DNA of 42,832 bases, taken from the NCBI GenBank assembly GCA_947383145.1, contig CANDCH010000018.1, positions 1 to 42,832 on the forward strand, in the 5' to 3' direction. Below the pieces are notes generated by a model that was not told the origin of the DNA, did no database searches, and worked only from the letters and a program-made list of their open reading frames with translations. Of this stretch, positions 9,066 to 29,446 are shown piece after piece. The translations under genes were made by a program, and so were the position numbers. Within the stretch, counting starts at the first letter, position 1; the number at the start of each line of letters is the position of its first letter. Source of the DNA: an uncultured bacterium. GTDB taxonomy: Bacteria; Bacillota; Clostridia; Oscillospirales; Oscillospiraceae.

Positions 9066-9623
9066 TTAGACGCTTGCCGCCTCATCCACATCCCACAGCT
9101 CCTCCGCCCCGCCCGTCTCCACCAGCCGCAGCCGGTCCTGGTGGAGGCGAATTACCCCGCCGCCGCCCCGGTCGCCGGCGAGGGCCAGCAGCTCCGGGAA
9201 CAGGTCCCGCGGAAACACCGCCGGGGACCCCCGCTCCCCTCGCCAGCCCAGGGAACAGACGGCGTCCGGGTGGGCGATAAAATCCGCCAGCAGCCGCTTC
9301 ACGCTCTCCCGGCGCAGCCAGGGCTGGTCGCACACACAGAACATCACGCCGTCCATATCCATCAGGGCGGACAGCCCCAGCCGGACAGAGGCGGACTGAC
9401 CCTGGGCCGCCTCTGGGTTAGGGACAGGCACATACCCCCGCTCCCCGGCCAGGGCCAGAATCTCCGGGTAACAGCTCACCACGCAGGCTTGCTCAAACAG
9501 CTCCGCCGGGACGGCCCCCAGGGCCCGCTCGATCATGGGCACGCCCTCCACCGGATGGAGCAGCTTGTTTCCCCCAAACCGCCGCCCTGCCCCGGAAGCC
9601 ATCAGCACCGCGCCGATTTTCAC
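9066..9623 (-). CDS. mocA: MocA-like molybdenum cofactor nucleotidyltransferase
   Basis: 185 residues of the NTP-transferase fold. The N-terminal nucleotide-binding loop is LMASGAGRRFGGNKLL (7-22), and CDQPWL is the metal-binding Asp motif. The family attaches CMP (or GMP) to molybdopterin for the molybdenum hydroxylases. E. coli keeps its homologue (ygfJ) in the same gene neighbourhood. It starts with GTG, overlapping the hydantoinase stop as GTGA and without a strong ribosome site, so translation is probably coupled. Last gene of the ygeX unit. It would mature the cofactor of the xanthine dehydrogenase at 19425-22016. Confidence 0.82.
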   Translation of the reverse strand: MKIGAVLMASGAGRRFGGNKLLHPVEGVPMIERALGAVPAELFEQACVVSCYPEILALAGERGYVPVPNPEAAQGQSASVRLGLSALMDMDGVMFCVCDQPWLRRESVKRLLADFIAHPDAVCSLGWRGERGSPAVFPRDLFPELLALAGDRGGGGVIRLHQDRLRLVETGGAEELWDVDEAASV

Positions 9624-11002
9624 CGCCAGAATTGGGCGGACCCCCGGCGGACAAAGCGTCCCCGGCGCTCCGCCGTCACCTGTCCGTCCTCCACGGCCGT
9701 CTCCCCGGACAGCAGGACCCGTTCCACCCGGCCCCTGGTCTCGAAGCCCTCGTAAGGGGTGTAGTCTACCGCCTGACGCTGGCCGGCGGCGGTAATGCGG
9801 CCCTTATATTCCGGGTCGAATATGACAAGATCGGCGTCGCTGCCCACCGCCAGCGCCCCCTTCCGGGGGTACATGCCGAACAGCCTGGCGGGCTGCTCGG
9901 ACAGCAGCTTCATAAATTGGTGGGCGGACATACGCCCGGACGCCACCCCCGCCGTGTACATGAGGACGGGCCGGTGCTCCACGCCGGGGATGCCGCTGGG
10001 GATTTTGGAGAAGTCCTCCCTGCCCAGCTCCTTCACGCCCCGGAAGTGGAAGGAGCAGTGGTCGGTGCCGATGGTGTCGATGATCCCGGCCTCCAGCCCC
10101 GCCCACAGGGCCTCCACATCCTCCCGCCCACGCAAGGGCGGCGAAAGGACAAATTTCGCGCCCTCAAAGCCGGGGAGACGGTACATGCCCTCGTCCAGCA
10201 GCAGGTACTGCGGGCAGGTCTCCGCGTATACCTTCTGGCCCCGCTCCCGGGCGGCCCGCACCAGCTCCAGCCCCCGTTTGGTGGACAGGTGGACAATGTT
10301 CACCGGATATCCCGCCAGCTCACCGACGGTCAGCCAGCGGTCCACAGCCTCCGCCTCCACAGCCGCCGGACGGGACAGGGGATGGGCGGCGGGCCCCAGA
10401 TTTCCCGCGGCCCTCTGGGCGGCGACGCCCGCCGCCACCAGATCGCCGTTCTCGCAGTGACAGCCCACGATGCCGCCCCGCTCCCCCACGGCCCGGACCA
10501 CCTCCAGCGCCGTGCCGTCGGACACCCGCAGGTTGTCGTAGGCGAAGTACACCTTGTAGGAGGTCACCCCCGCACGCTCCATGTCCGCCAGCTCCGCCCG
10601 AATGGCCGGATTCCAGTCCTTGATGGTCATGTGGAAGCCATAATGACAGGAGGCAATCCCGTCCGCACGACTGTGCCATGCGTCCAGAGCAGAGGCCAGG
10701 GAGGCCCCCCGCTCCGGCTCGGCAAAGTCCAGCACGGTGGTGGCGCCCCCGGCCAGCGCCGCCAGGGTGCCGGAGGCCCAATCGTCCGCCGTCTCGTTGG
10801 GCCTTCCCTTGTTCATCTCGAAGTGGGTGTGGGTGTCGATAAAGCCGGGGAACACCAGCTTTCCCGACGCGTCCAGCACCCGGCTGTCCCCCACAGAAAG
10901 GCCTGGGCCGATCTGGGCGATTTTCTCCCCCTCCACCCGCAGATCGGCCCTGATGGGACCGTCCGGGCAGATGAGAACGCCGTTTTGGATCAGGATGGAC
11001 AT
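9620..11002 (-). CDS. hyuA: Dihydropyrimidinase/hydantoinase-family amidohydrolase (HyuA/YgeZ-like)
   Basis: 460 residues. The complete binuclear zinc site is visible: His58 and His60 (DTHTH), carboxylatable Lys150 (TSYKVYF), His182 (CHC), His238 (IVHLS) and Asp314 (GTDH). Enzymes of this fold open cyclic imides and amides such as dihydrouracil, hydantoin or allantoin. In this cluster the target is expected to be a reduced or partly opened purine ring product. GGAGGAGG lies before the ATG. Upstream is carbamate kinase, across a 99-bp hairpin spacer; downstream it overlaps the MocA-like gene. E. coli has hyuA at the equivalent place. Confidence 0.9.
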   Translation of the reverse strand: MSILIQNGVLICPDGPIRADLRVEGEKIAQIGPGLSVGDSRVLDASGKLVFPGFIDTHTHFEMNKGRPNETADDWASGTLAALAGGATTVLDFAEPERGASLASALDAWHSRADGIASCHYGFHMTIKDWNPAIRAELADMERAGVTSYKVYFAYDNLRVSDGTALEVVRAVGERGGIVGCHCENGDLVAAGVAAQRAAGNLGPAAHPLSRPAAVEAEAVDRWLTVGELAGYPVNIVHLSTKRGLELVRAARERGQKVYAETCPQYLLLDEGMYRLPGFEGAKFVLSPPLRGREDVEALWAGLEAGIIDTIGTDHCSFHFRGVKELGREDFSKIPSGIPGVEHRPVLMYTAGVASGRMSAHQFMKLLSEQPARLFGMYPRKGALAVGSDADLVIFDPEYKGRITAAGQRQAVDYTPYEGFETRGRVERVLLSGETAVEDGQVTAERRGRFVRRGSAQFWR

Positions 11003-11041
11003 GATATTTCCTCCTCCCTGGGGACGCTGGAGCTTTGCCCC

Positions 11042-11097
11042 AAAGTTCTTTTTGATTCTTTTTCTTTCAAGAAAAAGAACGTCCGGCCGGCGAGGCC
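11042..11097. repeat. 56-bp hairpin repeat, copy 1
   Basis: It differs from 25279-25334 at only three of 56 positions. Its core is an 11-bp perfect stem (TTCTTTTTCTT, TC, AAGAAAAAGAA; 11056-11079), followed by CCGGCCGGCGAGGCC. It begins 4 bases after the carbamate kinase stop codon. On the minus strand it could act as a partial terminator or a processing site inside the operon. Confidence 0.75.
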
Positions 11098-11101
11098 AAC
11101 C

Positions 11102-12043
11102 CTACATACGGATAACTGTTCCCGTCTTCCCCGCCACGCCGTCCCGGGCCTTCTCCAGCAGGGTGATGAGGGCGGAGCGCCCCGGGGCGGACCGGGCGAA
11201 CTCCACCGCCGCCTGCACCTTGGGCAGCATGGAGCCGGGGGCGAAGTGGCCCTGGGCCATATACCCCTCCGCCTCCTCCGGGGTGAGGGTGTCCAGCCAT
11301 TTCTGGTTGGGCTTGCCGAAGTTGACGGCAGCCTTCTCCACGGCGGTGAGGATGATGAGGGTGTCGGCGTTGAGCTGTTGGGCCAGCACGCAGGATGCGA
11401 AGTCCTTGTCAATGACCGCCGCCGCGCCCTTCAGGTGGTGCCCCTCGGTTCGGAACACGGGGATGCCGCCGCCCCCGCAGGCCACGACGACAAGCCCGGC
11501 CTCCACCATGTCCCGGATGGACTGGATCTCCACGATGGCCTGGGGCCGGGGAGAGGCCACCACCCGCCGCCAGCCCCGCCCGGCGTCCTCGATCACCTGA
11601 TAGTCCCGCTCGGCCACCAGCTTGTCCGCTTCTTCTCGGGTCATGAAGGCCCCGATGGGCTTGGTGGGGTGGGCGAAAGCCGGGTCGGCGGGGTCCACCT
11701 CCACCTGGGTGAGCACCGTGGCCACCCCCTTCCGGATGCCCCGGTCCAGCAGCTCCTCCCGCAGGGCGTTTTGCAGATCGTAGCCGATGTAGCCCTGGCT
11801 CATGGCCACGCACACCGACAGGGGGCAGGGGATGTATTTCTCCGGCTCGGACCGGGTGAGCTCCGCCATGGCCTTCTGGATCATGCCCACCTGGGGGCCG
11901 TTGCCGTGGGAGAGGATGACCTGGTGGCCGTCCTCGATGAGGTCGGCGATGGCCTTGGCCGTCTGTTTGACGGCAACCATCTGCTCGGGGAGATTGCTGC
12001 CCAGGGCGTTGCCGCCCAGGGCGATGACGATGCGCTTTCCCAT
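11102..12043 (-). CDS. arcC: Carbamate kinase
   Basis: 313 residues. The amino-acid kinase fold is clear: IVIALGGNALG at the N-terminus, LSHGNGPQVG, ACGGGGIPV and KGAAAVIDKD (catalytic Lys/Asp region). The reaction is carbamoyl phosphate + ADP to carbamate + ATP. It is the ATP-yielding step that gives carbamoyltransferase pathways their energy. E. coli YqeA holds the same place in its cluster. The ATG at 12043 has GGAGGT upstream and gives the canonical start MGKRIVIALGG; an in-frame TTG at 12058 would overlap that ribosome site. It lies between ygeW and the hydantoinase. Confidence 0.93.
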   Translation of the reverse strand: MGKRIVIALGGNALGSNLPEQMVAVKQTAKAIADLIEDGHQVILSHGNGPQVGMIQKAMAELTRSEPEKYIPCPLSVCVAMSQGYIGYDLQNALREELLDRGIRKGVATVLTQVEVDPADPAFAHPTKPIGAFMTREEADKLVAERDYQVIEDAGRGWRRVVASPRPQAIVEIQSIRDMVEAGLVVVACGGGGIPVFRTEGHHLKGAAAVIDKDFASCVLAQQLNADTLIILTAVEKAAVNFGKPNQKWLDTLTPEEAEGYMAQGHFAPGSMLPKVQAAVEFARSAPGRSALITLLEKARDGVAGKTGTVIRM

Positions 12044-12233
12044 TGATAATACCTCCAACCAGTCGAAAATACAAGACAGGCCCGCCCTTTCCGGACGGGC
12101 CTGTGTTTGTGTTACTTTTTCTTGAAAGAAAAAGTAACCAAAAAGAACTTTTAATTCGCTACCAACTGTTCTGGTATATAAAAGTTGATGCCCGGTAACA
12201 TGAGTTTTCTTTTATTGGAAAAGAAACTTTTTC
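12044..12233. repeat. Hairpin-rich spacer between ygeW and carbamate kinase
   Basis: Two clear stems. ACAGGCCCG/CGGGCCTGT (12076-12084 with 12096-12104) is one. The other is a perfect 13-bp stem, GTTACTTTTTCTT, GA, AAGAAAAAGTAAC (12111-12138), related to the hairpins at 11056, 25292 and 42117. A weaker A/T-rich stem lies at about 12201-12226. They may trim or attenuate the long transcript after ygeW. Confidence 0.6.
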
Positions 12234-13433
12234 TTATTTTTGAAACCAACGGGCAGCATTGCGCTCTTCCAAAGCCTTCAGCGTGGCCTGGGGGTCCTTC
12301 ACCTTGGCCAGGAAAATCATGGCGGCGATGATGTAGGGCTTGAAGCTGGCCTCCTTGTACAGCGGGGTGCGGTAGCGGTCGAACACGCTGGCCTCCACCT
12401 CGCCGTCCACGCAGGACACGCCGTTGATGTCGGCGGGCAGGCAGTGCAGGTACAGGGCCTTGCCGTCCCGGGTGGCCTTCATCAGCTCCTCGGTGCAGCA
12501 CCAGTCCTTGTGCTGGGCGTTCTGGGCCAGCAGCTCCTTCTCCAGGGCCTTGATGCCGTCGGAATCGCCCTTGGCGTACAGGCCGGTGCGCTTCTCCATG
12601 GCGGCGAAGGGGGCCCAGCTCTTGGGGTAGACGATGTCCGCATCCTTAAACGCCTCGGCCATGGAGTGGGTCTTGGTGAAGGTGCCGCCGGTGGCCGCGG
12701 CGTTCTTCCTGGCCACCTCCTCCACCTCGGGCATAACCTCGTAGCCCTCGGGGTGGGCCAGCACCACGTCCATGCCGAACCGGGTCATCAGGCCGATGAC
12801 GCCCTGGGGCACGCTGAGGGGCTTGCCGTAGCTGGGGGAGTAGGCCCAGGTCATGGCGACTTTTTTGCCCTTGAGATTCTCCACGCCGCCGAACTCGTGG
12901 ATGATGTGGAGCATATCCGCCATGCACTGGGTGGGGTGGTCGATGTCGCACTGGAGGTTGACCAGGGTGGGCTTCTGCTCCAGCACGCCGTCCTTGTGGC
13001 CCTGGGTGACGGCCTCCACCACCTCCTTCTGGTAGGTGTGGCCCTTGCCGATGTACATATCGTCCCGGATGCCGATGACATCCGCCATGAAGGAGATCAT
13101 GTTGGCGGTCTCCCGGACGGTTTCGCCGTGGGCGATCTGGCTCTTGCCCTCGTCCAAGTCCTGGACCTCCAGCCCCAGCAGGTTGCAGGCGGAGGCGAAG
13201 GAGAACCGGGTGCGGGTGGAGTTGTCCCGGAACAGGGAGATGCCCAAACCGCTTTCAAAGATCTTGGTGGAGATGTTGTGCTCCCGCATGTAGCGCAGGG
13301 CGTCGGCTACGGTGAACACGGCCTCCAGCTCGTCGGCGGTCTTGTCCCAGGTGAGGAAGAAGTCGCCCTCGTACATCTCCTTGAAATTCAGGGCGTTCAG
13401 CTTATCGATATATTTTTGCAGGGTGGCGTCCAT
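12234..13433 (-). CDS. ygeW: Knotted carbamoyltransferase YgeW
   Basis: 399 residues. Carbamoyl-phosphate site STRTR at 72-76, HPTQ at 166-169 and HCLP at 330-333, the three motifs of the aspartate/ornithine carbamoyltransferase family. The length and the long central part fit the YgeW family rather than ArgF or PyrB. The physiological acceptor of YgeW is not settled. Next to carbamate kinase it would run in the catabolic direction, releasing carbamoyl phosphate from a carbamoylated ring-opening product. AAGGAG lies before the ATG. It lies between ygeY and arcC. Confidence 0.93.
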   Translation of the reverse strand: MDATLQKYIDKLNALNFKEMYEGDFFLTWDKTADELEAVFTVADALRYMREHNISTKIFESGLGISLFRDNSTRTRFSFASACNLLGLEVQDLDEGKSQIAHGETVRETANMISFMADVIGIRDDMYIGKGHTYQKEVVEAVTQGHKDGVLEQKPTLVNLQCDIDHPTQCMADMLHIIHEFGGVENLKGKKVAMTWAYSPSYGKPLSVPQGVIGLMTRFGMDVVLAHPEGYEVMPEVEEVARKNAAATGGTFTKTHSMAEAFKDADIVYPKSWAPFAAMEKRTGLYAKGDSDGIKALEKELLAQNAQHKDWCCTEELMKATRDGKALYLHCLPADINGVSCVDGEVEASVFDRYRTPLYKEASFKPYIIAAMIFLAKVKDPQATLKALEERNAARWFQK

Positions 13434-13461
13434 GATTTTATTCTCCTTTTCAAATTTTGTG

Positions 13462-13535: not shown

Positions 13536-13540
13536 GGCAA

Positions 13541-14953
13541 TCATTTAATGTCGTTATCGGTTTTGCCCGCCCGGAACTGGGACACGTCGGCGGTCTTGTT
13601 CTCCTCCCTGTAGAGGCCGGGGACGGCGGCGTACAGCGCGGCGCAGCGCACCAGGTCGTCCTTCCAGGTGATCTCGTTGGGGGCGTGGGCCTGGCTCTCC
13701 GCGCCGGGGCCGAAGCCCACGCAGGGGATGCCGTACCGGCCCTGGATGGACACGCAGTTGGTGGAGAAGGTCCACTTGTCCGTCAGGGGGCGGCCGGTGC
13801 GCAGGTGCATGGCGTCCTTGGCCTGGTCCGCGTCGGCGTGGCCGATGCGCTCCTGGCCCCAAAGGGCGTGGTGGGCGTCCACCAGGGCCTGGACATGGGC
13901 CGCGCCGGCCTTGTTGATCCAGGTGGGGAAGAAGCACTCCGTCTCATAGACGGTTCCCGTCCAGGCGGGACGGTCGTACATGTACATGGAGACCTTCACG
14001 TCGTCCCCGTATTTCTTCACGCTGGGCAGCTGGCGGATTTCCTCCAGGCAGGAGTCCCAGGTCTCCCCGGCGGTCATGCGCCGGTCGATGGAAATGGAGC
14101 AGCTGTCCGCCACGGCGCAGCGGCTGGGGGAGGTGTAGAAAATCTGGCTGGTGGTGCAGGTGCCCCGGCCCAGGAACTGGGCGTCCTCATAATGCTCGGG
14201 GTTGAACGCGGGATTCAGCATCTTCACCAGGCCCTTGACGGCGTTGGAGGGGCCGTCGCCGTTTTCGTTCAGGGCCCGGACGTCCTGGAGGATGTCGGCC
14301 ATCTTGTAGATGGCGTTGTCGCCCCGGTGGGGGGCGGAGCCGTGGCAGGAAACGCCCTTCACGTCCACCCGGATTTCCATGCGGCCCCGGTGGCCCCGGT
14401 AGATGCCGCCGTCGGTGGGCTCGGTGGAGATGACAAACTCCACCTGCTCCTTGCGGATTCCGTTGGCGGGGAAGAACTTGTTGACGATGTACTGCCAGCA
14501 CATGCCGTCGCAGTCCTCCTCCTGGACGGAGCCCACCACCATGATCCGGTAGCCCTCGGGGATGAGCCCCAGGTCCTTCATGATCTTGGCCCCATACACG
14601 GCGGAGGCCATGCCGCCCTCCTGGTCGGAACCGCCCCGGCCATAGATGACGGCGTCGTCCTCCCAGCCCTCGTAGGGGTCGGCGGTCCAGTTGTCCCGGT
14701 TGCCGATGCCCACGGTGTCGATGTGGGAGTCGATGGCGATGATCTTGTCGCCCCGGCCCATCCAGCCGATGATATTGCCCAGGCCGTCCACCTCGACCTT
14801 GTCGAAGTTCAGCTTCTCCATCTCCGCCTTGATGCAGGCGACGACCTCTTTTTCCTCGCAGCTCTCGCTGGGGTGGGAGATCATGGCGCGCAGGAACGCG
14901 CTCATATCCTTGCGGTAACCTTCGGCAGCTGCTAAGATTTTTTCCTTGTCCAT
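13541..14953 (-). CDS. ygeY: M20-family metallohydrolase YgeY
   Basis: 470 residues. M20 peptidase/deacylase metal site: His77 and Asp79 (DSHIDT), Asp110 (GGSDQEGG), catalytic pair Glu145/Glu146 (VQEED), and a dimerisation lid domain with [12 protein letters not shown]. Enzymes of this family cut amide or carbamoyl bonds of small metabolites. In this cluster YgeY probably makes or processes the diaminopropionate precursor used by YgeX (inference). The ATG at 14953 has GGAGGG nine bases upstream. The open frame runs on to 14995, but earlier starts overlap that ribosome site. 48 bases separate it from ygeX. Confidence 0.9.
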
Positions 14954-15001
14954 GAGAAAACCCTCCATATTGATTGATATGTATTTTTGGCTCAATGCCG
15001 G

Positions 15002-16204
15002 TTAAATGGTGGGATATTCGCCACCCCACACAATTCTCTTGTACTTGTCCGGGTCGGTGTCCCCCTCGGTGGAGAACAGCAGCACCTTGGAGCTCCCATC
15101 CAGCCCCAGGGCCTCCCGGAGCGCTTGATACTGTTCATCCTCCATGATGGCGGAGACGGCCCCCATGCCCACGGCGCCGGACTCGCCGGAGGTCACCGCC
15201 GGGTCGCCCTTGATGGGGGCGGCCAGCATCCGCATCCCTTTCGCGGCCACCCAGTCGGGGCAGGAGAGGAAGGCGTCCGCATGGTTGCGCAGGATGTCCC
15301 AGCCGATGGTGTTGGGCTCGCCGCAGGCCAGCCCCGCCATGATGGTCTGGAGGTCGCCCCCCACCATCCTAGGCTTGCCGTCCCCGGCTTTCGCCCCCTG
15401 GTAGAGACAGTCGGCGATCTGGGCCTCCATGACGATGAACTTGGGCGGGTTATCGGGGAACCGGTTGGCAAAGTACCCCACCACCGCCCCGGCCAGGGAG
15501 CCCACGCCCGCCTGGACGAACACATGGGTGGGACGCTCTCCCAGCTGCTCCGCCGCCTCCCCGGCCATGGTGCCGTAGCCCTGCATGATCCAGGCGGGAA
15601 TCTCCTCGTAGCCCTCCCAGGCGGTGTCCTGGACCACCACGCCGTGCTCGGTCCGGGCGGCCTCCGCCGCGGCCATGCGCACGCAGTCGTCGTAGTTGAC
15701 CTCTTCGATGGCGACCTGGGCCCCCTCTTTGGCGATGTTGTCAAAGCGGCTCTTGGCGCTGCCCTTGGGCATATGGACCACGGCCTTCTGGCCCAGCCTG
15801 TTGGCCGCCCAGGCCACCCCCCGGCCGTGGTTTCCATCGGTGGCGGTAAAGAAGGTGGCCTGTCCGAACTCCTCCCTCAGCTTCTCCCCGGTGAGGTAGT
15901 TGTAGTCCACCTGGGACACGTCCCGGCCCAGCTGCTGTGCGATGTACCGCCCCATGGCGAAGGAGCCGCCCAGCACCTTGAAGGCGTTGAGACCGAAGCG
16001 GTAGCTCTCGTCCTTCACGGACAGGGAGCCCAGCCCCAGGCGGCCGGCCATGCCGGGGAGCTTCGCCAAAGGGGTGACGGCGTACTGGGGGAAGGAGCGG
16101 TGGAACGCCTGGGCCTTGGCCACGTTCTGGAGGGACATGATCTCCAGCCGCCGGTCGCCGCTGGCGGGCATGTTGTTCAGGACCCATTGGATGGGCTGGT
16201 TCAT
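15002..16204 (-). CDS. ygeX: 2,3-diaminopropionate ammonia-lyase
   Basis: 400 residues, fold-type II PLP enzyme. The PLP lysine is Lys76 (RFGLNAFKVLGG). TDGNHGRGVAW is the substrate/PLP loop and AGVGSLAG the glycine-rich phosphate loop. The reaction in E. coli YgeX is 2,3-diaminopropionate to pyruvate plus two ammonia through 2-aminoacrylate. It gives the carbon and nitrogen output of the pathway. First gene of its transcription unit: strong promoter at 16261-16288, AGGAGG about 10 bases before ATG. Confidence 0.95.
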   Translation of the reverse strand: MNQPIQWVLNNMPASGDRRLEIMSLQNVAKAQAFHRSFPQYAVTPLAKLPGMAGRLGLGSLSVKDESYRFGLNAFKVLGGSFAMGRYIAQQLGRDVSQVDYNYLTGEKLREEFGQATFFTATDGNHGRGVAWAANRLGQKAVVHMPKGSAKSRFDNIAKEGAQVAIEEVNYDDCVRMAAAEAARTEHGVVVQDTAWEGYEEIPAWIMQGYGTMAGEAAEQLGERPTHVFVQAGVGSLAGAVVGYFANRFPDNPPKFIVMEAQIADCLYQGAKAGDGKPRMVGGDLQTIMAGLACGEPNTIGWDILRNHADAFLSCPDWVAAKGMRMLAAPIKGDPAVTSGESGAVGMGAVSAIMEDEQYQALREALGLDGSSKVLLFSTEGDTDPDKYKRIVWGGEYPTI

Positions 16205-16260: not shown

Positions 16261-16288
16261 ATCATACCACGCTCCCACCAATTGTCAA
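16261..16288 (-). promoter_or_regulatory. Strong promoter of the ygeX-ygeY-ygeW-arcC-hyuA-mocA unit
   Basis: Minus strand: consensus -35 TTGACA (16283-16288), 16-base spacer, -10 TATGAT (16261-16266) with an extended TGG ahead of it. An A/T-rich UP-like tract with TTTTTTAGATTT (16292-16303) lies upstream. The leader is about 50 bases. This is the best promoter in the window. Confidence 0.85.
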
Positions 16289-16370: not shown

Positions 16371-16404
16371 AAAATACCCCGTGACCGCTGTCATGGGGTA
16401 TTTT
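16371..16404. terminator. Bidirectional terminator after the FecCD importer
   Basis: AAAATACCCC, a G/T mismatch, TGAC, loop CGCT, GTCA, GGGGTATTTT. It ends the importer unit on the minus strand, with the T-run TATTTTTG. It separates that unit from the ygeX promoter. Confidence 0.85.
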
Positions 16405-17186
16405 CAGGACTCATACTCCCAGCCCAGCGCCAGGAGGCCGTCCCGGAACTCCGCCCGGAGGCCGGGGCCGTACACCGCCCGCAGGCCCTGGGCCAGCCTT
16501 TCCTCAAAACCCGGCTCCCCCCGGCGCAGGTCCAGCAAAATCCGGCCCTGATGCAGAATCATGATCCGGGGCGCGTAGGTGTAGGCCAGCTCCGGGGCGT
16601 GGACGGCCGCCAGACAGCCAGCCCGCCGCTCCTCCACATACCGGCCCAGCCGGTGGAGGAACAAGTGCTGCCGGGACAGGTCCAGGGAGGACACCGGCTC
16701 GTCCAGCAGCAGGCACCCGGCGTCCTGCATCATGGCCCGGGCCAGGTAGGCCATCCGCTGCTCTCCGCCGCTGAGCTGGTCCATGGGACGGCCGATGAGA
16801 TGGCCGCAGTCCAAACCGCGCAAAAGCGCCTCCGCCCGGCGCAGCTCCCCCTCCCCCGGCCGGGAGAAGGCCCCCAGATAGGCGGTGGCCCCCATGGACA
16901 CAAAGTCCTCCGCCCGGTAGCGGAAGCCCCCGTCGTACCGCTGGGGGACATAGGCCAGCTGTTTGGCCCGGTCCGCCGGGGAAAGCCGGTCCAGGGACTC
17001 TCCATCCGCCGTGAGCGCGCCCCCCTGCCGGGGGAGGAAGCCCAGGATCGCCTTGAGCAGGGTGGTCTTGCCCGCCCCGTTGAGACCCAGCACCGCCGTC
17101 ACCTCGCCGGGGCGCAGGGCAAAGCTGATCCCGTCCAGCACCAGCCGCCCGCCCCGGTACACCGTCAGGTTTTCCACGTTCAGCAC
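16404..17186 (-). CDS. FecE/BtuD-type ABC importer ATPase
   Basis: 260 residues. Walker A GLNGAGKTT at 34-42, Gln82, signature LSGGEQR at 138-144, Walker B CLLLDEP at 158-164. Type II importer ATPase (iron-siderophore, B12, or molybdate MolC). The start is GTG 17186 behind a GGGGGGAG ribosome site, overlapping the permease end by seven bases. The frame stays open far upstream to about 18074, but that part is antiparallel to nothing useful and lies out of frame within the permease gene. Last gene of the ssnA-ygfK-xdh-importer unit. Confidence 0.88.
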   Translation of the reverse strand: MLNVENLTVYRGGRLVLDGISFALRPGEVTAVLGLNGAGKTTLLKAILGFLPRQGGALTADGESLDRLSPADRAKQLAYVPQRYDGGFRYRAEDFVSMGATAYLGAFSRPGEGELRRAEALLRGLDCGHLIGRPMDQLSGGEQRMAYLARAMMQDAGCLLLDEPVSSLDLSRQHLFLHRLGRYVEERRAGCLAAVHAPELAYTYAPRIMILHQGRILLDLRRGEPGFEERLAQGLRAVYGPGLRAEFRDGLLALGWEYES

Positions 17187-22102: not shown

Positions 22103-25096
22103 TTATCCCAGCAGATACGGGTAATTCCCGTACACCGTGCCGATCAGGCGGCGCAGGGGGTCGTACAGCCCGCAGGCGGGGTCGGACACGTCATATTCCT
22201 TGACCTCCCCGGCGAAGCGCACCAGGGTCCTGGAACCCTCCAGCCGCAGGAAGCCCTGGTTCTCGCTGTTCTCGAAGTCCTCCCGGCTCCAGAACAGGGT
22301 GAACTTGTCCCGGTAGGGAGCGCTGTCGTAGGGGCAGAACACGGCGCAGTTGCCGCACTCGTTGCACATGCCGTCCACGTGGACAATCTGCCGCTGGCGC
22401 AGCCCCTCCACACGGACGGGCACGTTGGCCCGGTTGGGGCACACCTCGGTACAGGTCTCGCACACGGTGGCGCAGCCCAGGCAGCGGATCTCCCCGCAGG
22501 AGGCGCAGTCGGTGCACACGTCGCCCCGCTTGGCCAGCGGGGCGGCGTAGTCCGGGTTCACGTTCTTGTCCGCGAAGGCGTCCACGTCGAAATCCTGGAT
22601 GGCCTTTGCGGCCCTCATGGCCCCCGCGATGGCCTCCACCACCGTACCGGGGCCGCTCTGCCCGTCGCCCGCCACGTAAACGCCCTTGACGCTGGACTCC
22701 ATCGTATCCGAGTTTACCACAGCCCGGCCCCGTCTGTCCACCTCCAGGCCGTTGGCGGTATACAGGGCGGTGTCCACCTTCTCGCCCACGGCGGCGATCA
22801 CGGCGCCGGCGGGTACTTCCACTGTTTTTCCCGTGTCCACCGGGGCGCGCCGGCCGGAGGCGTCGGGGGCGCCCAGCTCCATCACCCGACAGGTGAGGAT
22901 TCCATCCTTCACGCCCACGGGGGAGAGCAGCTCCCGGAACTCCACGCCATCGGCCACCGCCAGCTCCAGCTCCTCCTGGTCGGCGGGCATGTACCGCTTG
23001 GTGCGGCGGTACACCAAAGAAACCTTCTTCACCCCGGGGACGCGCTTGGCCGCCCGGGCGGCGTCCATGGCGGTGTTTCCGCCGCCGATGACCGCCACGT
23101 TCTCCCCCAGCTTCAGCGTCTCGGGGGCCTTCTTCGCCGCCTCCAGGAAGGAGATGACATTCATCTCCCCGCCGTACTCCAGCCCGGCGGAGCCGGGGCT
23201 CCAGGCCCCCGTGGCCAGAATGACATGGGTGTAGATATTGCGCAGAGCCCTGATGTCGTCGATGCGGGTATTCAGGCACACCTTCACCCCCATGGCCTCC
23301 ATCAGGCGTACGTCGTTGTCAACAAGCTCATGGGAGATGCGGAATTCTGGGATGACGTGGCGGACGATGCCGCCCAGGGACTCCCGGGCCTCGAACAGGG
23401 TCACGTCCACCCCGGCCCGGCCCAGGAAGAAGGCCGCCGCCATGCCCGCCGGACCGCCGCCCACTACGGCCACCCTCTTGCCGCTGACCGGATTTCCCGG
23501 TTTCAGCTTGGGCAGGAGGGAGGCGAAGCCGCCCTTTGCCGCCTTCAGCTTCTGGCCGCGGATATAAACGCTCTCGTCGTAGGCTCCGCGCATACATTTG
23601 TCCTGACAGCGGTGGGAGCAGATGGCGCCGGTGATAAAGGGCAGGGGGTTGCGCCGGGTGATGATCTCCAGCGCCTCCTCATATTTTCCGGCGTTCACCG
23701 CCATGAGATAGGCGGGGATATCCTGTTCAATGGGACACCCGGAGCGGCAGGGAGCCTGGAAGCAGTCGATGAGAGGCACCTTCTTGTCCGTCTTGCGGCT
23801 GGGAATGGGCTTGACGGGCTTGGTCCAGTGGCCGTCCGCCGGGATGGCCTCCGCCAGCGCCGCTACTCTCGCCTGGTCCACCCCCCGCCAGGGCCCATAG
23901 CCGATATCCGCCAGCAGGCCGCCGATCTGGCTCAGCCGCTGGTAGCCGCCGGGCTTCAGGATGGTGGTGGCCATGGTGACGGGCCAGATGCCCGCGTCGA
24001 ACAGGTTCCAGATGGAGGCGGCGTCCGCCCCGCCGGAGTAGGAGATGCGCAGCTTCCCGCCGAACTCGCGGGCCAGCATCCCCGCCAGGGAGAGGGACAG
24101 GGGGTACAGGGCGCGGCCGGACATGTACATCTCCTGGCTGGACAGCTCGTTTGCCGCCACATCCACCGGGAAGGTGTTGGTGATCTTCACGCCGAAGGCC
24201 AGACCCTTTTCATCGCACAGCTTCTGGAGCCGCCGGAACATGGGGATGGCGTCCGCCCACTGGAGGTCCTCCTTGAAATGGTGGTCGTCGAACACAATAT
24301 AATCATAGCCCAGGCCGTCCAGGGTGTTCCGGGCAAACTCGTAGCCCAGCAGGGTGGGGTTGCACTTGATATAGGTGTTCAGGCACTTCTCGGTGATGAG
24401 ATAGGTGGCGATGCGCTCGATCTCGTCGGGAGGGCAGCCGTGAAGGGTGGACTCGGTGATGGAGGCGGACACCTTGGGGGAGACAGATTTCACATAGTCC
24501 TCGTCCACGCGCTCAAACCGGCCCAGGCTGGCCAGGGACCAGTCCAGGCACTCCTTCCACACCTCAGAGCCGGAGGCGTCCTTCATGCCTTCGATGTATC
24601 GGTCGATCTTCTCGCTTTTGATGCCCGCCAGGTCGTAGCCCACCGACATGTTGAACACAAAACCGTCCGGGTCCCCCAGCCCCAGCTCCCTCGCCAGCAG
24701 CTTGCAGGCCCACCAGGCCTTGACGTACTCGGCATAGGCCTGGGGCACCGTCAGCTCGGTGGACCACTCGCAGTTATAGCACTCGTCCCCGGCGGTGATG
24801 CAGGGCTTGCTGACACACCTGGACAGCTCCTCGCCGTCCATGATCTGGACGGTTTTCAGCTCGAAAAACCGGGCTCCGGCGGCGTAGGCGGCGATGATGT
24901 TCTGGGCCAGCTGGGTGTGAGGTCCCGCGGCGGGACCGTAGGGGGATTCGATCCTCTCCTCAAAGATGGGCAGGGCCCTGCCGTCCTGATGGCGCGCCAG
25001 CTTGGACACGCCGAAGATACTGCCCTGGGTCTTGTACTCGGTGAGCACCCAGTCCATCAGCTGGGCGAAGGGCATGGGCCGCATGATGTCGCTCAT
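22103..25096 (-). CDS. ygfK: YgfK, multidomain flavin/iron-sulfur oxidoreductase (putative selenate reductase subunit)
   Basis: 997 residues. The N-terminal third (about 1-400) resembles a dihydroorotate/dihydropyrimidine dehydrogenase barrel. A GltD-like cysteine region follows (CFQAPCRSGCP, CSHRCQDKC, about 445-502). Next are an FAD site VAVVGGGPAGMAAA (about 542-555) and an NAD(P) site VAVIGGGNTAMDAA (about 667-680). The C-terminal ferredoxin clusters are CTDCASCGEIRC...CETCTEVCP and CNECGNCAVFCP. The plan mirrors dihydropyrimidine dehydrogenase, so reductive attack on a purine or pyrimidine-like ring with NAD(P)H is plausible. The selenate-reductase label is historical. ATG 25096 (GGAGGT eight bases upstream) is preferred over 25111. 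Confidence 0.9.
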   Translation of the reverse strand: MSDIMRPMPFAQLMDWVLTEYKTQGSIFGVSKLARHQDGRALPIFEERIESPYGPAAGPHTQLAQNIIAAYAAGARFFELKTVQIMDGEELSRCVSKPCITAGDECYNCEWSTELTVPQAYAEYVKAWWACKLLARELGLGDPDGFVFNMSVGYDLAGIKSEKIDRYIEGMKDASGSEVWKECLDWSLASLGRFERVDEDYVKSVSPKVSASITESTLHGCPPDEIERIATYLITEKCLNTYIKCNPTLLGYEFARNTLDGLGYDYIVFDDHHFKEDLQWADAIPMFRRLQKLCDEKGLAFGVKITNTFPVDVAANELSSQEMYMSGRALYPLSLSLAGMLAREFGGKLRISYSGGADAASIWNLFDAGIWPVTMATTILKPGGYQRLSQIGGLLADIGYGPWRGVDQARVAALAEAIPADGHWTKPVKPIPSRKTDKKVPLIDCFQAPCRSGCPIEQDIPAYLMAVNAGKYEEALEIITRRNPLPFITGAICSHRCQDKCMRGAYDESVYIRGQKLKAAKGGFASLLPKLKPGNPVSGKRVAVVGGGPAGMAAAFFLGRAGVDVTLFEARESLGGIVRHVIPEFRISHELVDNDVRLMEAMGVKVCLNTRIDDIRALRNIYTHVILATGAWSPGSAGLEYGGEMNVISFLEAAKKAPETLKLGENVAVIGGGNTAMDAARAAKRVPGVKKVSLVYRRTKRYMPADQEELELAVADGVEFRELLSPVGVKDGILTCRVMELGAPDASGRRAPVDTGKTVEVPAGAVIAAVGEKVDTALYTANGLEVDRRGRAVVNSDTMESSVKGVYVAGDGQSGPGTVVEAIAGAMRAAKAIQDFDVDAFADKNVNPDYAAPLAKRGDVCTDCASCGEIRCLGCATVCETCTEVCPNRANVPVRVEGLRQRQIVHVDGMCNECGNCAVFCPYDSAPYRDKFTLFWSREDFENSENQGFLRLEGSRTLVRFAGEVKEYDVSDPACGLYDPLRRLIGTVYGNYPYLLG

Positions 25097-25125
25097 TGCA
25101 ATGACCTCCATAATGATTTGACGCT

Positions 25126-25198
25126 GGGGACGCTGTCCCCAGACCCCTGCCAGGGGCTTTGCCCCTGGACTCCACCCGCTTTTTTGTAAAAAAGCGGG
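25126..25198. repeat. Array of three hairpins before ygfK
   Basis: Stems GGGGAC/GTCCCC (25126-25140), CCAGGGGC/GCCCCTGG (25150-25168), and CCCGCTTTTTT/AAAAAAGCGGG (25175-25198, 11-bp arms). With the block at 25279-25334 they fill the ssnA-ygfK spacer. The first stem begins 30 bases upstream of the ygfK ATG and would lie in its mRNA leader. Confidence 0.65.
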
Positions 25199-25278
25199 GC
25201 AAAAAACTTTTATCGCGAAACTCCGTTTCGCTTTTGCTTTTTATAAATATTTCGGAAGCAAAGCGAAGCTTTGCGCTT

Positions 25279-25334
25279 AAAATTCTTTTTGGTTCTTTTT
25301 CTTTCAAGAAAAAGAACGCCCGGCCGGCGAGGCC
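25279..25334. repeat. 56-bp hairpin repeat, copy 2
   Basis: Same block as 11042-11097 (three differences). The core is a 26-base perfect hairpin at 25292-25317. It abuts the ssnA stop codon directly. Confidence 0.75.
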
Positions 25335-26675
25335 TCAGTAGCTCCGATGGTTCAGCTCGCCCCACAGCTTTTTGGACTGCTCCAGGGTCCAGGCGTTGAT
25401 GGCGTCCTCGTCAATGCCCACGAACTCCCGATCCCTGTAGAGGACCTTCCCGTTGATAATGGTGGTGCGGCAGTTCTTGCCCATCATGCCGAACAGCATA
25501 TGGCCGTCGATGTTGTCCGCGCCGAAGGGGGTGAAGGGCTTGTAGTCCATGACGATGACGTCCGCCGCCGCGCCGGGCTCCAGCACCCCCAGGGGCTTCT
25601 GGAAGTACCGGGCGCAGATGGCGGGGTTGTTCCGGAACAGCATCCCCATGGCCTCGCACCAGCCCGCGTTGGGGTCGCAGGCGTTGTGGCGCTGCATGGG
25701 CAGCAGGACCTTCAGGGACTCCAGCATGTCGTGGGTGTAGGCGTCGGTGCCCAGGCCGATGAGGATGCCCTTCTCGAACAGCTTCAGCACCGGGGAGCAG
25801 CCCACTGCGTTGCCCATGTTGGACTCCGGGTTGTGGCACACCATGGTGTTGGTCTCTTTGATGATGTCCATCTCCGCCGGGGAGATGTGGATGCAGTGGC
25901 CCAGCATGGTCTTTTCCCCCAGAATGCCGTTGTACAGCAGGCGGTTGACGGGCCGGCAGCCGTAGTTGTTCAGGCTGTCGTACACGTCGTTCATGCCCTC
26001 GGCCACGTGGATGTGGAAGCCGGTCATGCCGTCGTTGGCCTTGACCATCTCCTCAAAGGTCCTGTCGGAGATGGTGAACAGGGCGTGGCCGCCGAACATG
26101 GCCTTGATCATGTCGCTGTTTTCCTGCTTGGCCCAGCGGGCGAAGTCGGCGTTCTCCCGGATGGACTGGGCGCATTTCTCCGCCCCGTCCCGCTCGGACA
26201 CCTCGTAGCACAGGCAGGCCCGCATCCCCAGCTCCTGGCACACGTCCTTGATGGCGAACAGGGAGCCGGGAATCTCGCCGAAGGAGGCGTGGTGGTCGAA
26301 AATGGTGGTCACGCCGTCCCGGATGCAGTCCAGCACGGTGGCGTAGGCGCAGGCCCGGGTGCCGTCCAGGGTGAGGTGGCGGTCGATGTTCCACCATTGG
26401 CCGTCCAGCACCTCAAAGAAGTTGGCGGGGCTGTAGCCGTCGATGGCCAGGCCCCGGGCCAGGCCGCTGTAGATGTGGGTGTGGACGTTGATGAGGCCGG
26501 GCATGATGACGCCGCCCCTGGCGTCCACGAACTCCGCCTCCGGGTACTTGGCCCGCATGGCCTCCAGGGCGCCGGTCTCCTTGACGGTTTCGCCGTCCAG
26601 CGCCACCGCGCCGTTTTCCAGATAGGGGTTGGTCTCGCTCCGGGTGATGAGCCTTCCGTTGCCAATGAGCAGCAT
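25335..26675 (-). CDS. ssnA: SsnA, amidohydrolase-family aminohydrolase
   Basis: 446 residues. Metal site of the guanine deaminase/atrazine chlorohydrolase type: His65 and His67 (NVHTH), His223 with Glu226 (HIHVAEG), His260 (GHCIH) and Asp311 (GTDAYTHD). SsnA proteins are annotated only as selenium-metabolism associated. The fold and cluster suggest deamination of an aminopurine (guanine-like) or hydrolysis of a ring intermediate. GGGAGGA lies seven bases before ATG. First gene of the long minus unit to 16404, divergent from the regulator. Its own promoter in 26676-26760 is not clear-cut. Confidence 0.88.
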   Translation of the reverse strand: MLLIGNGRLITRSETNPYLENGAVALDGETVKETGALEAMRAKYPEAEFVDARGGVIMPGLINVHTHIYSGLARGLAIDGYSPANFFEVLDGQWWNIDRHLTLDGTRACAYATVLDCIRDGVTTIFDHHASFGEIPGSLFAIKDVCQELGMRACLCYEVSERDGAEKCAQSIRENADFARWAKQENSDMIKAMFGGHALFTISDRTFEEMVKANDGMTGFHIHVAEGMNDVYDSLNNYGCRPVNRLLYNGILGEKTMLGHCIHISPAEMDIIKETNTMVCHNPESNMGNAVGCSPVLKLFEKGILIGLGTDAYTHDMLESLKVLLPMQRHNACDPNAGWCEAMGMLFRNNPAICARYFQKPLGVLEPGAAADVIVMDYKPFTPFGADNIDGHMLFGMMGKNCRTTIINGKVLYRDREFVGIDEDAINAWTLEQSKKLWGELNHRSY

Positions 26676-26726
26676 AGTCTTTCCTCCCGTTTATCATCAA
26701 AATAGTTTTTTGCTCAAACTTTTTTC

Positions 26727-26754
26727 TTGCAATGTGAGAATTCTGTGCTATACT
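26727..26754 (+). promoter_or_regulatory. Promoter of the YheO-type regulator
   Basis: -35 TTGCAA (26727-26732), 16-base spacer, -10 TATACT (26749-26754) with an extended TGC. The palindrome AGAATTCT (26738-26745) lies in the spacer, and CGTTAACG (26770-26777) overlaps the start region. Either could be an operator shared with the divergent ssnA unit. Confidence 0.6.
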
Positions 26755-26790
26755 AATAGATATCTTGAACGTTAACGAGGTGATTTCCAT

Positions 26791-27438
26791 TTGGACGCGT
26801 CTATGATCCAATTCCTGTTCCGGCTGGCCAAGGCCCTGGCCGCCCAGTTCGGCCCCAGCTGCGAGGTGGTCATCCACGACCTCCAGTCCAACGACCCGGA
26901 CAGCTCCATCGTGGCCATCGAGAACGGCCACGTCTCCGGTCGCAAGGTGGGGGACGGTCCCTCCCACGTGGTGCTGGAGGCGCTGAACAGCGGCGGCATC
27001 CCGGAGGACCGGCTGAGCTATCTCACCAAGATCGCCGACGGCAAGACCTTAAAGTCCACCACCGTCTACATCCGGGACGAGGGGCAGGCGCCCATCGGCA
27101 TCTTCTCCATCAACTACGACATCACCCTGATGCTGGCCATGGAGGAGAACCTGCGGCAGTTCACCGCCCCCGCCCTCCAGCAGGCGGAGCACGCCCCCGA
27201 GCCCATCGCCCAGAACGTCTCCGACCTGTTGGACGAGCTCATCGAGCAGAGCGTACGCCGGGTGGGCAAGCCGGCGGCCCTCATGACCAAGGAGGAGAAG
27301 GTGAAGGCCATCGGGTTCCTCAACGACACCGGGGCCTTTCTCATCACCAAGTCCGGGGCCAGGGTGTGCAAATACTTCGGCATCTCCAAGTATACCCTAT
27401 ACAGCTACATGGAGGAGGCCAAGGGCGGAAAGGAATAA
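26791..27438 (+). CDS. YheO-type PAS plus helix-turn-helix transcriptional regulator
   Basis: 215 residues. An N-terminal YheO-like PAS domain (about 8-115) begins FGPSCEVVIHDL. The C-terminal helix-turn-helix (about 150-210) ends with CKYFGISKYTLYSYMEEAK. The start is TTG 26791 with GAGGTG eight bases upstream; the next ATG (26803) would be too far from it. It is divergent from ssnA and the only DNA-binding protein inside the cluster, so it is the likely pathway regulator, sensing a purine or metabolite through the PAS domain (inference). E. coli instead uses a sigma-54 activator (YgeV) there. Confidence 0.87.
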   Translation: MDASMIQFLFRLAKALAAQFGPSCEVVIHDLQSNDPDSSIVAIENGHVSGRKVGDGPSHVVLEALNSGGIPEDRLSYLTKIADGKTLKSTTVYIRDEGQAPIGIFSINYDITLMLAMEENLRQFTAPALQQAEHAPEPIAQNVSDLLDELIEQSVRRVGKPAALMTKEEKVKAIGFLNDTGAFLITKSGARVCKYFGISKYTLYSYMEEAKGGKE

Positions 27439-27453
27439 AATAACGGACCTGGG

Positions 27454-27486
27454 CCGGGCCGGCGGGGACACCGGCCCGGTTTTTTT
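27454..27486 (+). terminator. Terminator of the regulator gene
   Basis: Stem CCGGGCCGG, eight-base loop, CCGGCCCGG, then seven T. It lies between convergent genes. Confidence 0.92.
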
Positions 27487-27490
27487 GCGT

Positions 27491-28828
27491 TTACGCCTGG
27501 GGTTTTACGGCCTGGTCCCAGGGCAGGAGCAGGTTCAGCAGGATGGCCGTGATGGCGGTGACCACGATGGGGGAGGAGCCGAACACGGTGTGGACCCAGG
27601 CGGGGAAGCCGGGGCCCTGGAGGGAGCCCGCCACCTGGGTGATGCCCACGCCCAGGGCCACGGACAGCCCCACCACCGCGCTGGAGCGCATGGAGAAGTG
27701 GTCCGAGGTGATCATCCGGATGCCCGTCATGGTGATGGTGGCGAACACGGAGATGGTGGCCCCGCCGATGACCGCCTGGGGGATGGTGGTGAGGAGGGCG
27801 GACAGCTTGGGCACCAGGCCCGCCACCAGCAGCACCAGGGAGGCAAAGGCGAACACCGCCTTGTTGATGACCCGGTTGACGGTGACAATGCCCACGTTCT
27901 GGCTGTAGGTGGCGGCGGGCAGGCCCCCGAACAGGGCCCCTAGAATGGACACCGCGCCCTGGGCGATGATGCCGCCGGACAGTTCCTTGTCGGTGGGCAT
28001 ACGGTCCATGCCGCCCATGGTGGTGGAGGACAGGTCGCCGATGGTCTGCACGGCGTTGATGACATACACCACCGCCAGGGAGATGCAGGCGCTGGCCTCA
28101 AATTTTACGCCGAAATGGAGGGGAGCCGCCAGCTGGAACCAGCCCGCCGGGGCCACGGCGGAGAAGTCCACCATGCCCAGGCACAGGGCCAGCACGTAGC
28201 CCACAATCATGCCCCAGAGGATGGCCCCCAACTTCAAAACCCCCTTGCCGAAGTTCTGTAGAACCACCACCACCGCCAGGGTCACCAGCGCCACCGCCCA
28301 GTTCTTCAGACCGCCGAACTCGGCGCTGCCCGCGCCGCCCGCCATGTATTTCACCGCCGTGGGATACAGGGACAGGCCGATGGTGAAGATGACGGTGCCG
28401 GTGATGAGGGGCGGGAACAGCTTCCGGATCTGCCTGACGAAGACGCCGAACAGGATGGCCACGCAGCCTCCCACAATCTCCGCGCCCAGAATGGTGGGCA
28501 GGTCGAACTGTCCGCCGATGGCCAGCAGGGTGGGCACATAGGCGAAGCTGATGCCCATGACCACCGGCAGGCCGGAGCCGACGCGGTGTTTGATGGTGTA
28601 CAGCTGGAGCAGGGTGGCCAGGGCGGTGACGATGAGGGACACCTGGATCAGCAGGGTGCGGTCTCCATCGGACAGGCCGCAGGTGTTGGCCACCATGATG
28701 GCGGGGGTGATGACCCCCACGATAGCGGCCACCACATGCTGGAGTCCCAGCGGGATGAGCTGGCCGGGAGCGGGGATGCCCTCCAAGGAGAACACAGACC
28801 CTGGGGCCTGAGCTGGCTTTTCTGTCAC
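27491..28828 (-). CDS. NCS2-family urate/xanthine permease
   Basis: 445 residues with 12-14 membrane segments, nucleobase-ascorbate transporter family. Conserved His31 (LQHVVA) in the first helix and QNVG (310-313) in the helix-10 signature. The helix-8 motif reads QTIGD (261-265), where most characterised members have Glu in place of Gln261. Family and neighbours point to urate or xanthine uptake by proton symport. It starts with GTG behind GGAGGA. Own promoter (28881-28909), so it can be expressed apart from the enzymes. It converges on the regulator gene. Confidence 0.88.
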   Translation of the reverse strand: MTEKPAQAPGSVFSLEGIPAPGQLIPLGLQHVVAAIVGVITPAIMVANTCGLSDGDRTLLIQVSLIVTALATLLQLYTIKHRVGSGLPVVMGISFAYVPTLLAIGGQFDLPTILGAEIVGGCVAILFGVFVRQIRKLFPPLITGTVIFTIGLSLYPTAVKYMAGGAGSAEFGGLKNWAVALVTLAVVVVLQNFGKGVLKLGAILWGMIVGYVLALCLGMVDFSAVAPAGWFQLAAPLHFGVKFEASACISLAVVYVINAVQTIGDLSSTTMGGMDRMPTDKELSGGIIAQGAVSILGALFGGLPAATYSQNVGIVTVNRVINKAVFAFASLVLLVAGLVPKLSALLTTIPQAVIGGATISVFATITMTGIRMITSDHFSMRSSAVVGLSVALGVGITQVAGSLQGPGFPAWVHTVFGSSPIVVTAITAILLNLLLPWDQAVKPQA

Positions 28829-28880
28829 AAGAATTCCTCCTTACTTTTTTTGAGCTATAAAAAATTTATTTCATAATTCG

Positions 28881-28909
28881 AGTATAGCCCATTTGCCTCG
28901 GAATTTCAA
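28881..28909 (-). promoter_or_regulatory. Promoter of the purine permease
   Basis: Minus strand: -35 TTGAAA (28904-28909), 17-base spacer, -10 TATACT (28881-28886). The leader is about 45 A/T-rich bases; I see no purine riboswitch in it. Confidence 0.75.
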
Positions 28910-29004
28910 GGAAGAAAACCGCGCCGGGCCGCCAAAATCCGGCCTTTGTTTTTGTATAGTTTTCACAAAAAGTTTGTCGTGCAAACAAAAAGTCAGGAAC
29001 AAGA

Positions 29005-29050
29005 ATGCCGCCGGGCCCTCCGCCCCGCAGGCGGTACGGCTCGGCGGCAT
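29005..29050 (-). terminator. Stem-loop after ridA, probable terminator
   Basis: ATGCCGCCG pairs with CGGCGGCAT around an inner CCGCC/GGCGG stem. On the minus strand a T-rich tract follows about 15 bases later. It lies 22 bases past the ridA stop. Confidence 0.5.
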
Positions 29051-29071
29051 CCAGCCTTGATGAAACGGATA

Positions 29072-29446
29072 TTATTTGACGGCCACGGCCTCAATCTCAA
29101 ACAGCGCCCCCTTGGGCAGGGCGGCCGCCTGGACGCAGGAGCGGGCGGGGGCCTCGCCGGGGAAATACTTGGCATAGATGGCGTTGATGGCGGAAAAATC
29201 GTTGATATCCGCCAGAAATACGGTGGTTTTTACCACGTCTCCACAGGTCATGCCGGCGGCGGCCAGCACAGCGGACAGGTTGTCCAGGGCTTGGGCCGCC
29301 TGGGCCTCCACACCCTGGGGCAGCTCGCCGGTGGCGGGGATCAGGCCCAGCTGGCCGGAGGTGTACAGGGTGTCCCCCGCCAGCTTGGCGTGGCAGTAGG
29401 GGCCCACGGCGGCGGGTGCGCTGGGGGCGGTGATGGTCTGGTTCAT
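29072..29446 (-). CDS. ridA: RidA family reactive intermediate deaminase
   Basis: 124 residues, full family length. Family landmarks: GPY near 15-17, YTSGQLG (28-34), the substrate-binding Arg102 in ARSCVQAAALP, and FEIEAVA at the C-terminus. RidA hydrolyses enamines/imines such as 2-aminoacrylate to keto acid and ammonia. YgeX produces exactly that intermediate, so this gene is a logical partner. ATG 29446 has GGAGGA at eight bases. Single gene with own promoter. Confidence 0.93.
   Translation of the reverse strand: MNQTITAPSAPAAVGPYCHAKLAGDTLYTSGQLGLIPATGELPQGVEAQAAQALDNLSAVLAAAGMTCGDVVKTTVFLADINDFSAINAIYAKYFPGEAPARSCVQAAALPKGALFEIEAVAVK

Follow-up and report, generated by a model that had tools for sequence, protein, structure and literature searches.

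A predicted reductive urate island in an Oscillospiraceae lineage with no detected selD or yqeB

We analyzed a stretch of 42,832 nucleotides from an uncultured Oscillospiraceae bacterium (the window; contig CANDCH010000018.1 of GenBank assembly GCA_947383145.1, GC content 64.8%), which carries an island of genes that very probably encodes the reductive, yanthine-forming route of anaerobic urate breakdown, in a lineage whose draft genomes appear to lack the selenium genes selD and yqeB. Its source genome, here labeled G000, spans 2.48 Mb in 58 contigs and is 85% complete, the window being contig C18; together with its three nearest relatives G200, G201 and G202 (loci L116, L117 and L118) this genome makes up the window lineage. 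Genes were assigned by comparing NCBIfam bit scores with curated cut-offs (given below as score/cut-off) and from Pfam domains. All genes that an earlier note on this DNA had named are intact open reading frames (ORFs) between positions 9066 and 29446, and nine NCBIfam models score over their cut-offs (SsnA, YgfK, Xdh, YgeX, YgeY, YgeW, ArcC, HyuA-type and Rid), in agreement with the joint occurrence that the note had described. The regulator is the sole gene of the island on the plus strand; every other gene lies on the minus strand.

The first gene of the upstream unit encodes the aminohydrolase SsnA (25335..26675; TIGR03314, 567/455 bits). It is followed by the flavin/Fe-S reductase gene ygfK (22103..25111; TIGR03315, 1331/835) and by xdhAC (19425..22016; TIGR03311, 1247/830), whose product contains fused [2Fe-2S] and molybdenum domains and no FAD domain. 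An ABC importer of the FecCD type comes next, with a substrate-binding protein (18324..19418; PF01497, Peripla_BP_2), a permease (17180..18172; PF01032, 282 bits, scored on the longer ORF 17180-18361) and an ATPase (16404..17195; ABC_tran, with no NCBIfam ABC model over cut-off among the matches listed). The downstream unit comprises the 2,3-diaminopropionate ammonia-lyase gene ygeX (15002..16204; TIGR03528, 611/532), the M20-type hydrolase gene ygeY (13541..14995; TIGR03526, 596/321), the knotted carbamoyltransferase gene ygeW (12234..13433; TIGR03316, 802/500), an arcC-type carbamate kinase gene (11102..12058; TIGR00746, 379/358), a hyuA of the D-hydantoinase type (9620..11002; TIGR02033, 552/393) and, as its final gene, a mocA-type molybdopterin cytidylyltransferase gene (9066..9623; PF12804, and TIGR03310 at 126 bits, below the equivalog cut-off of 186). 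YgeY is longer than its E. coli counterpart through inserts that, in our alignment, are common to other Clostridia; we rejected the extra length as a special feature, since most of the added residues also occur there. At the right edge, a YheO-type regulator gene (26791..27438, plus strand; PAS_6 and HTH_22 by Pfam, no NCBIfam match) diverges from ssnA and is followed by genes for an NCS2 nucleobase permease (27491..28828; TIGR00801 superfamily model, 330/292, and just short of the pbuX model cut-off at 402/414) and for RidA, a detoxifying hydrolase of the Rid family (29072..29446; TIGR00004, 156/106, scored on a longer ORF to 29548). The regulator, permease, RidA and metal-type importer of the earlier note are thus borne out by Pfam and NCBIfam matches.

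In the 199-base gap preceding ygeX, a pattern scan located a promoter-like site on the minus strand (16261..16288; TTGACA-16-TATGAT with an extended -10), an 11 of 12 match to a sigma-70-like pattern at which the second unit may start; eight such sites were observed in 11500-30400, compared with 3.2 in shuffled sequence. The proposed division into two long units, from ssnA to the ATPase and from ygeX to mocA, is plausible, its basis being the gaps and this pattern. No riboswitch was found in the window by Rfam at the gathering threshold. The gap between ygeW and arcC contains a strong hairpin of 12 pairs with a T-rich tail behind it (12076-12104, minus strand), a possible attenuator; it is enclosed by a Phe_leader match at 12071-12156 that is weak and under the gathering threshold (E 0.031).

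We compared this gene set with the enzymes of anaerobic urate breakdown. In a study of E. coli and C. difficile enzymes (PMC12507026), assays had XdhD converting urate into yanthine, YgfK with SsnA yielding ureidomethyl-hydantoin, HyuA forming diureidopropionate, YgeW or UacY forming albizziin, and YgeY and YgeX leading to pyruvate. According to a commentary (PMC12990295), Liu et al. 2025 arrived at this route for C. sporogenes too, except that the two ureido groups come off in the opposite order. The C. sporogenes XdhAC yields yanthine, and the pathway seems highly urate-specific (PMC12990295). The window holds SsnA together with Xdh and YgfK (for which UacX would be the alternative), as well as HyuA, YgeW with carbamate kinase (or else UacY), YgeY and YgeX, each over its cut-off. 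Because every gene combination that we looked for was found, we conclude with high confidence that the island encodes the reductive route. The YgeY, YgeW, YgfK and SsnA steps, which the earlier note had left open, were assigned biochemically in 2025 (PMC12507026 and PMC12990295), so that this reservation is out of date. The note's description of an anaerobic purine/urate island holds for urate; "purine" is too broad for a pathway that appears to be urate-specific (PMC12990295).

By homology to enzymes of E. coli and C. difficile whose activity has been assayed and, according to the commentary, those of C. sporogenes, the catalytic steps would run as follows. XdhAC would strip the 6-oxygen from urate to give 2,8-dioxopurine (yanthine), whose ring would be reduced by YgfK and then opened by SsnA. 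HyuA would open the hydantoin ring of ureidomethyl-hydantoin to 2,3-diureidopropionate, and both ureido groups would be removed, by YgeW with ArcC and by YgeY, with a yield of one ATP made by ArcC from carbamoyl phosphate. YgeX would finally cleave diaminopropionate into pyruvate and ammonia. For the remaining proteins we infer their roles: the NCS2 permease presumably imports urate, and RidA presumably clears aminoacrylate. The molybdenum cofactor would be supplied by MocA and probably by the FecCD importer, and regulation likely falls to the divergent YheO-type protein. Among the open-access literature matches listed, none tied a YheO-type regulator to urate.

Several points speak against this assignment. 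MocA scores under the equivalog cut-off of its model (126/186), and the function in the window organism is predicted from its genes. The commentary counts the electron donor of XdhAC among the open questions, along with the ureido order and stereochemistry (PMC12990295). In addition, Glu-606 of E. coli XdhD, which has been proposed to orient urate, lies in an insertion that is absent from the window Xdh and from seven aligned XdhACs of the family. We therefore discarded Glu-606 as a yanthine marker, and the choice of product is inferred from family and context.

The solved structures closest in sequence to XdhAC are the Desulfovibrio aldehyde oxidoreductases 1dgj and 1sij. Like the window XdhAC, each is a single chain matched from the [2Fe-2S] to the molybdenum domains and lacks an FAD domain; they differ from XdhAC in substrate and in direction of reaction. 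We next considered whether the cluster might serve xanthine rather than urate, with an ordinary xanthine dehydrogenase as its Xdh, as the name of TIGR03311 (selenium-dependent xanthine dehydrogenase), the resemblance of the permease to PbuX and the lack of conservation of Glu-606 could suggest. In a sample of 200 genomes of the family, 61 encode ssnA (called at E at most 1e-60). A strong TIGR03311 Xdh, counting three strong fragments, is present in 58/61 of these genomes and in 1/139 others, and an FAD subunit gene (PF00941, at a threshold of E at most 1e-30 chosen after inspection of the table) in 57/61 and 9/139, respectively, all sets having been assembled by hand. Among 18 FAD/yqeB neighborhoods of ssnA genomes, 17 contain the FAD gene; a molybdenum subunit adjoins it in 16/17 and an Fe-S subunit in 14/17, and, except at one locus cut by a contig end, it forms part of a three- or two-subunit Xdh. 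Many ssnA genomes thus carry a second Xdh, since the FAD gene adjoins its own molybdenum and Fe-S subunits. That this separate, FAD-containing Xdh is so common, that the C. sporogenes XdhAC makes yanthine (PMC12990295) and that the downstream genes suit the urate route together make the xanthine alternative very improbable.

The same neighborhoods led us to reject the idea that XdhAC has its missing partner in the FAD subunit, since the PF00941 gene adjoins its own molybdenum subunit (16/17 loci) and so belongs in the first place to a separate Xdh; it may also serve XdhAC. The FAD gene lies inside the ssnA flank in 16/80 loci, these being the best 80, each with an SsnA alignment, of 588 loci that encode a relative, taken with flanks of up to 10 kb. 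A YgfM-type FAD subunit was not found in G000. An FAD subunit gene (PF00941) is present in G200 and G201, not in G202, and we dropped the idea of a genuine absence from G000 since two of the relatives have the gene.

The earlier note had drawn a route from purine to pyruvate, ammonia and ATP, which stands for urate with the addition of an electron demand that must be met from elsewhere. The computed degrees of reduction are 10 for hypoxanthine, 6 for urate, 10 for dihydroyanthine and 10 for pyruvate. Conversion of urate to pyruvate takes four electrons, and an outside source is therefore needed, for instance hypoxanthine oxidation by the separate Xdh, or formate. By the same computation, hypoxanthine releases four electrons on its way to urate and urate consumes four on its way to dihydroyanthine. 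This suggests that cells with both Xdh enzymes could ferment hypoxanthine in a redox-neutral manner and without outside electrons.

YqeB and SelD are markers of the labile selenium cofactor in molybdenum hydroxylases (PMC2276186 and PMC9312934). In C. difficile, urate no longer favored growth once selD was mutated or yqeB deleted, and Johnstone and Self raised a strict selenium dependence of urate reduction as one alternative (PMC11448449). We found neither gene in the window lineage: yqeB (TIGR03309) was not found in the draft genomes G000, G200, G201 and G202, and SelD gave no match over cut-off in these drafts, with weak matches of 23-36 bits only. Of the features that mark a selenium-dependent molybdenum hydroxylase, the window Xdh matches TIGR03311, and SelD and YqeB were not detected in the lineage drafts. 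The earlier note had overlooked this, as well as the absence of ssnA from both congeners described below. The four genomes are closely related, with SsnA of G200-G202 93-95% and MutS2 93-94% identical to the window proteins (MutS2 of G200 on a 200-residue fragment), and the relatives, like the window, have importer genes inserted between xdh and ygeX. In the family sample, yqeB is over cut-off in 55/61 ssnA genomes and in 10/139 others. Beyond the lineage, G204 and the two sampled congeners of the window genome, G066 (100% complete) and G145 (99%), have both selD and yqeB, and G203 has yqeB only. Among 25 hand-chosen genomes the status of the two genes agrees in 23, selD being present in 14/15 genomes with yqeB and lacking in 9/10 without it; G203 and G176 are the disagreements. 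G029, which is 97% complete, has neither gene and has kept XdhAC.

The XdhAC of the lineage is not decaying and is under strong constraint. Its dN/dS values against L116, L117 and L118 are 0.125, 0.121 and 0.101, for each relative lower than the values computed for five other island genes, if barely under ssnA (0.129) for L116; YgfK ranges over 0.18-0.21 and SsnA over 0.13-0.16. In the XdhAC alignment, no position that is conserved across the selenium-positive rows is altered throughout the lineage. Three sites only are unique to it (81, 282 and 463), of which 282 is Ser, compared with Leu in 32/37 selenium-positive rows. There is no telling change, and the sequence is therefore silent on what replaces selenium. 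Common xanthine dehydrogenases carry sulfur at this ligand position. Given the apparent loss of selD and yqeB, we lean slightly toward an XdhAC that runs without the labile selenium ligand and with ordinary sulfur instead.

Against a selenium-free enzyme stand the incompleteness of G000 (85%) and the unstated completeness of G200-G202, by which the absence of selD and yqeB is likely and not proven. A sulfur-inserting factor of the XdhC type was likewise not detected in a search that covered the window, L116-L118 and L227 and not the remainder of the genome. The selenium genes could thus be present and have been missed in the assemblies, XdhAC being an ordinary selenium-dependent urate reductase. 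The draft state of the four genomes would allow for this, the MutS2 gene of G200 is itself cut by a contig end, and both congeners have a selD-yqeB locus. Neither gene turned up, however, in any of four separate assemblies, for which the chance of independent misses is ~5e-4 if both independence and a rate of 15% are assumed, and the 97%-complete G029 retains XdhAC without either; we thus regard missed genes as a rather unlikely explanation. A further possibility is that selenium is still inserted independently of SelD and YqeB, for example as selenide via a cysteine desulfurase. The lack of a clear switch in the sequence, with three lineage-unique sites of which one (Ser-282) lies at a mostly-Leu place, would fit this view. 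In C. difficile, by contrast, selD and yqeB mutants lost the urate growth benefit (PMC11448449), and we consider this bypass improbable.

We built an Xdh phylogeny from 45 hand-picked loci together with the window and E. coli XdhD (47 rows), in which the E. coli row was flagged for a long branch. Its eight selenium-negative rows require four changes, all of them forced by well-supported branches. A tree rebuilt without E. coli and one duplicate (45 rows) again gave four; in it the end branches of G029 and G068 are still long, and "selenium-positive" stands for yqeB alone in most rows. Omitting G133 (73% complete) lowers the count to three, and omitting G028 (6% contamination) and G068 (85% complete) as well lowers it to two, which leaves the window lineage and G029. 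We give even chances to the view that the four-genome lineage runs a selenium-free reductive urate pathway and that at least the G029 lineage, and up to three, did likewise independently.

The apparent loss of the selenium machinery is what looks new here: among the matches listed from the open-access literature, which does not cover subscription papers, we recognized no selenium-free urate clusters. The pathway clears gut urate, and work to engineer it against high urate is under way (PMC12507026); the lineage offers a natural test of the strict selenium dependence of urate reduction. If the selenium-free reading is true, urate reduction is not strictly selenium-dependent, and selenium supply would set which gut bacteria clear urate. 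For probiotics, a urate reductase free of selenium would be a simpler part, and the database name "selenium-dependent xanthine dehydrogenase" would be unsafe for some genomes.

Some related loci were observed in the course of this comparison. The SelD genes of G022, G176 and G078 each contain one in-frame TGA and probably encode a selenocysteine-containing SelD. A molybdenum hydroxylase gene of a congener (G066:C12:126937-129186), with an adjoining FAD subunit, also has one in-frame TGA, a possible selenocysteine or break. At G087:C8:42358-44898, a TIGR03311 Xdh over cut-off occurs with yqeB in the genome and no ssnA at threshold, possibly another use of the family. Locus L150 (Lachnospiraceae AD3010, G207) has the order ssnA-ygfK-ygeX-ygeY-ygeW-arcC-rid-hyuA and no xdh in its flanks, and neither yqeB nor selD is over cut-off in its genome; this organism may use yanthine or another Xdh.

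The importer between xdhAC and ygeX consists of a class-2 binding protein, a FecCD permease and an ABC ATPase. The binding protein best matches PDB entry 4hn9 (5e-72), named an iron complex transport system substrate-binding protein, and more weakly three others and 3psa (HI_1472; 7e-19). HI_1472 is presumably MolA, a molybdate-binding protein. The best model for the permease is BtuC, below cut-off, and in G145 a related ABC system (26-42% identical) has selD, yqeB and the gene for a ModE-like protein (below cut-off) in its vicinity. Molybdate or tungstate is our best guess for the substrate, at about even odds. An importer lies nearby in 2/6 yqeB-negative ssnA loci, the window included, and in 0/45 yqeB-positive ones (p 0.012), in a post hoc count made by eye on loci of unequal length; we judged this too thin for a mark of selenium loss.

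The island itself was probably acquired horizontally. Neither congener has ssnA at the threshold used, and the closest SsnA in the family sample (90%) belongs to G172, whose MutS2 is only 57% identical; acquisition is thus the simplest reading. The window MutS2, encoded in the right flank of the island, is best matched by G066 and G145 (83% and 82%), with at most 72% in the other seven of nine genomes searched, and 30008-42830 is syntenic with both congeners in ten matched segments each. We therefore rejected a mis-binned contig. The right edge of the stretch absent from both congeners falls at 29549..30004, the genes further right being syntenic with both; in neither G066 nor G145 does the adjoining 20 kb contain a match to any window ORF of 1-29.5 kb. 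The left end of the island lies outside the window. To its left, an aconitase-like hydratase gene (PRK11413) is found at 6454-8682 (minus strand), for which no match was retained in the 80 loci, and 3096-6315 (minus strand) encodes a polar amino acid ABC transporter, with cystine transporters as best models (below cut-off), that encloses an alpha/beta hydrolase gene.

We compared the island to related loci and to characterized systems. The 80 loci comprise 68 from Bacillota, 11 from Actinomycetota and 1 unassigned. Near ssnA we counted ygfK in 73, xdh in 52, yheO in 46, ygeY in 38, ygeW in 34, ygeX in 32, ncs2 in 27, arcC in 23, hyuA in 15 and rid in 8, all lower bounds, as many contigs end before 10 kb. 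In line with the comparison of gene order that the earlier note had called for, the set recurs in relatives, and its order is partly conserved and varies between loci. In Flavonifractor sp. An82 (L121), the order ssnA-ygfK-xdh-ygeX-ygeY-ygeW and the divergent yheO and ncs2 are as in the window, whereas the insertion of binding protein, permease and ATPase between xdh and ygeX is missing and the genome (G208) has yqeB. The match to the E. coli ygeW-ygfU region was correctly recognized from the sequence: E. coli K-12 b2866-b2888 shares mocA and counterparts of XdhD, YgfK, SsnA, HyuA, YgeW, carbamate kinase, YgeY and YgeX. Unlike E. coli, the window has no YgeV, no yqeB/yqeC and no YgfM-type FAD subunit, and it has a YheO-type regulator as well as RidA and the FecCD importer in or beside the cluster. 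In C. difficile, as in the window, urate use begins with molybdenum hydroxylases (PMC11448449). C. difficile requires selD and yqeB (same source), neither of which was found in the window lineage. C. difficile also substitutes UacX for YgfK and UacY for YgeW/YqeA (PMC12507026); the window carries the E. coli-type set. Judging by its genes, the core island is a fresh member of an already described pathway.

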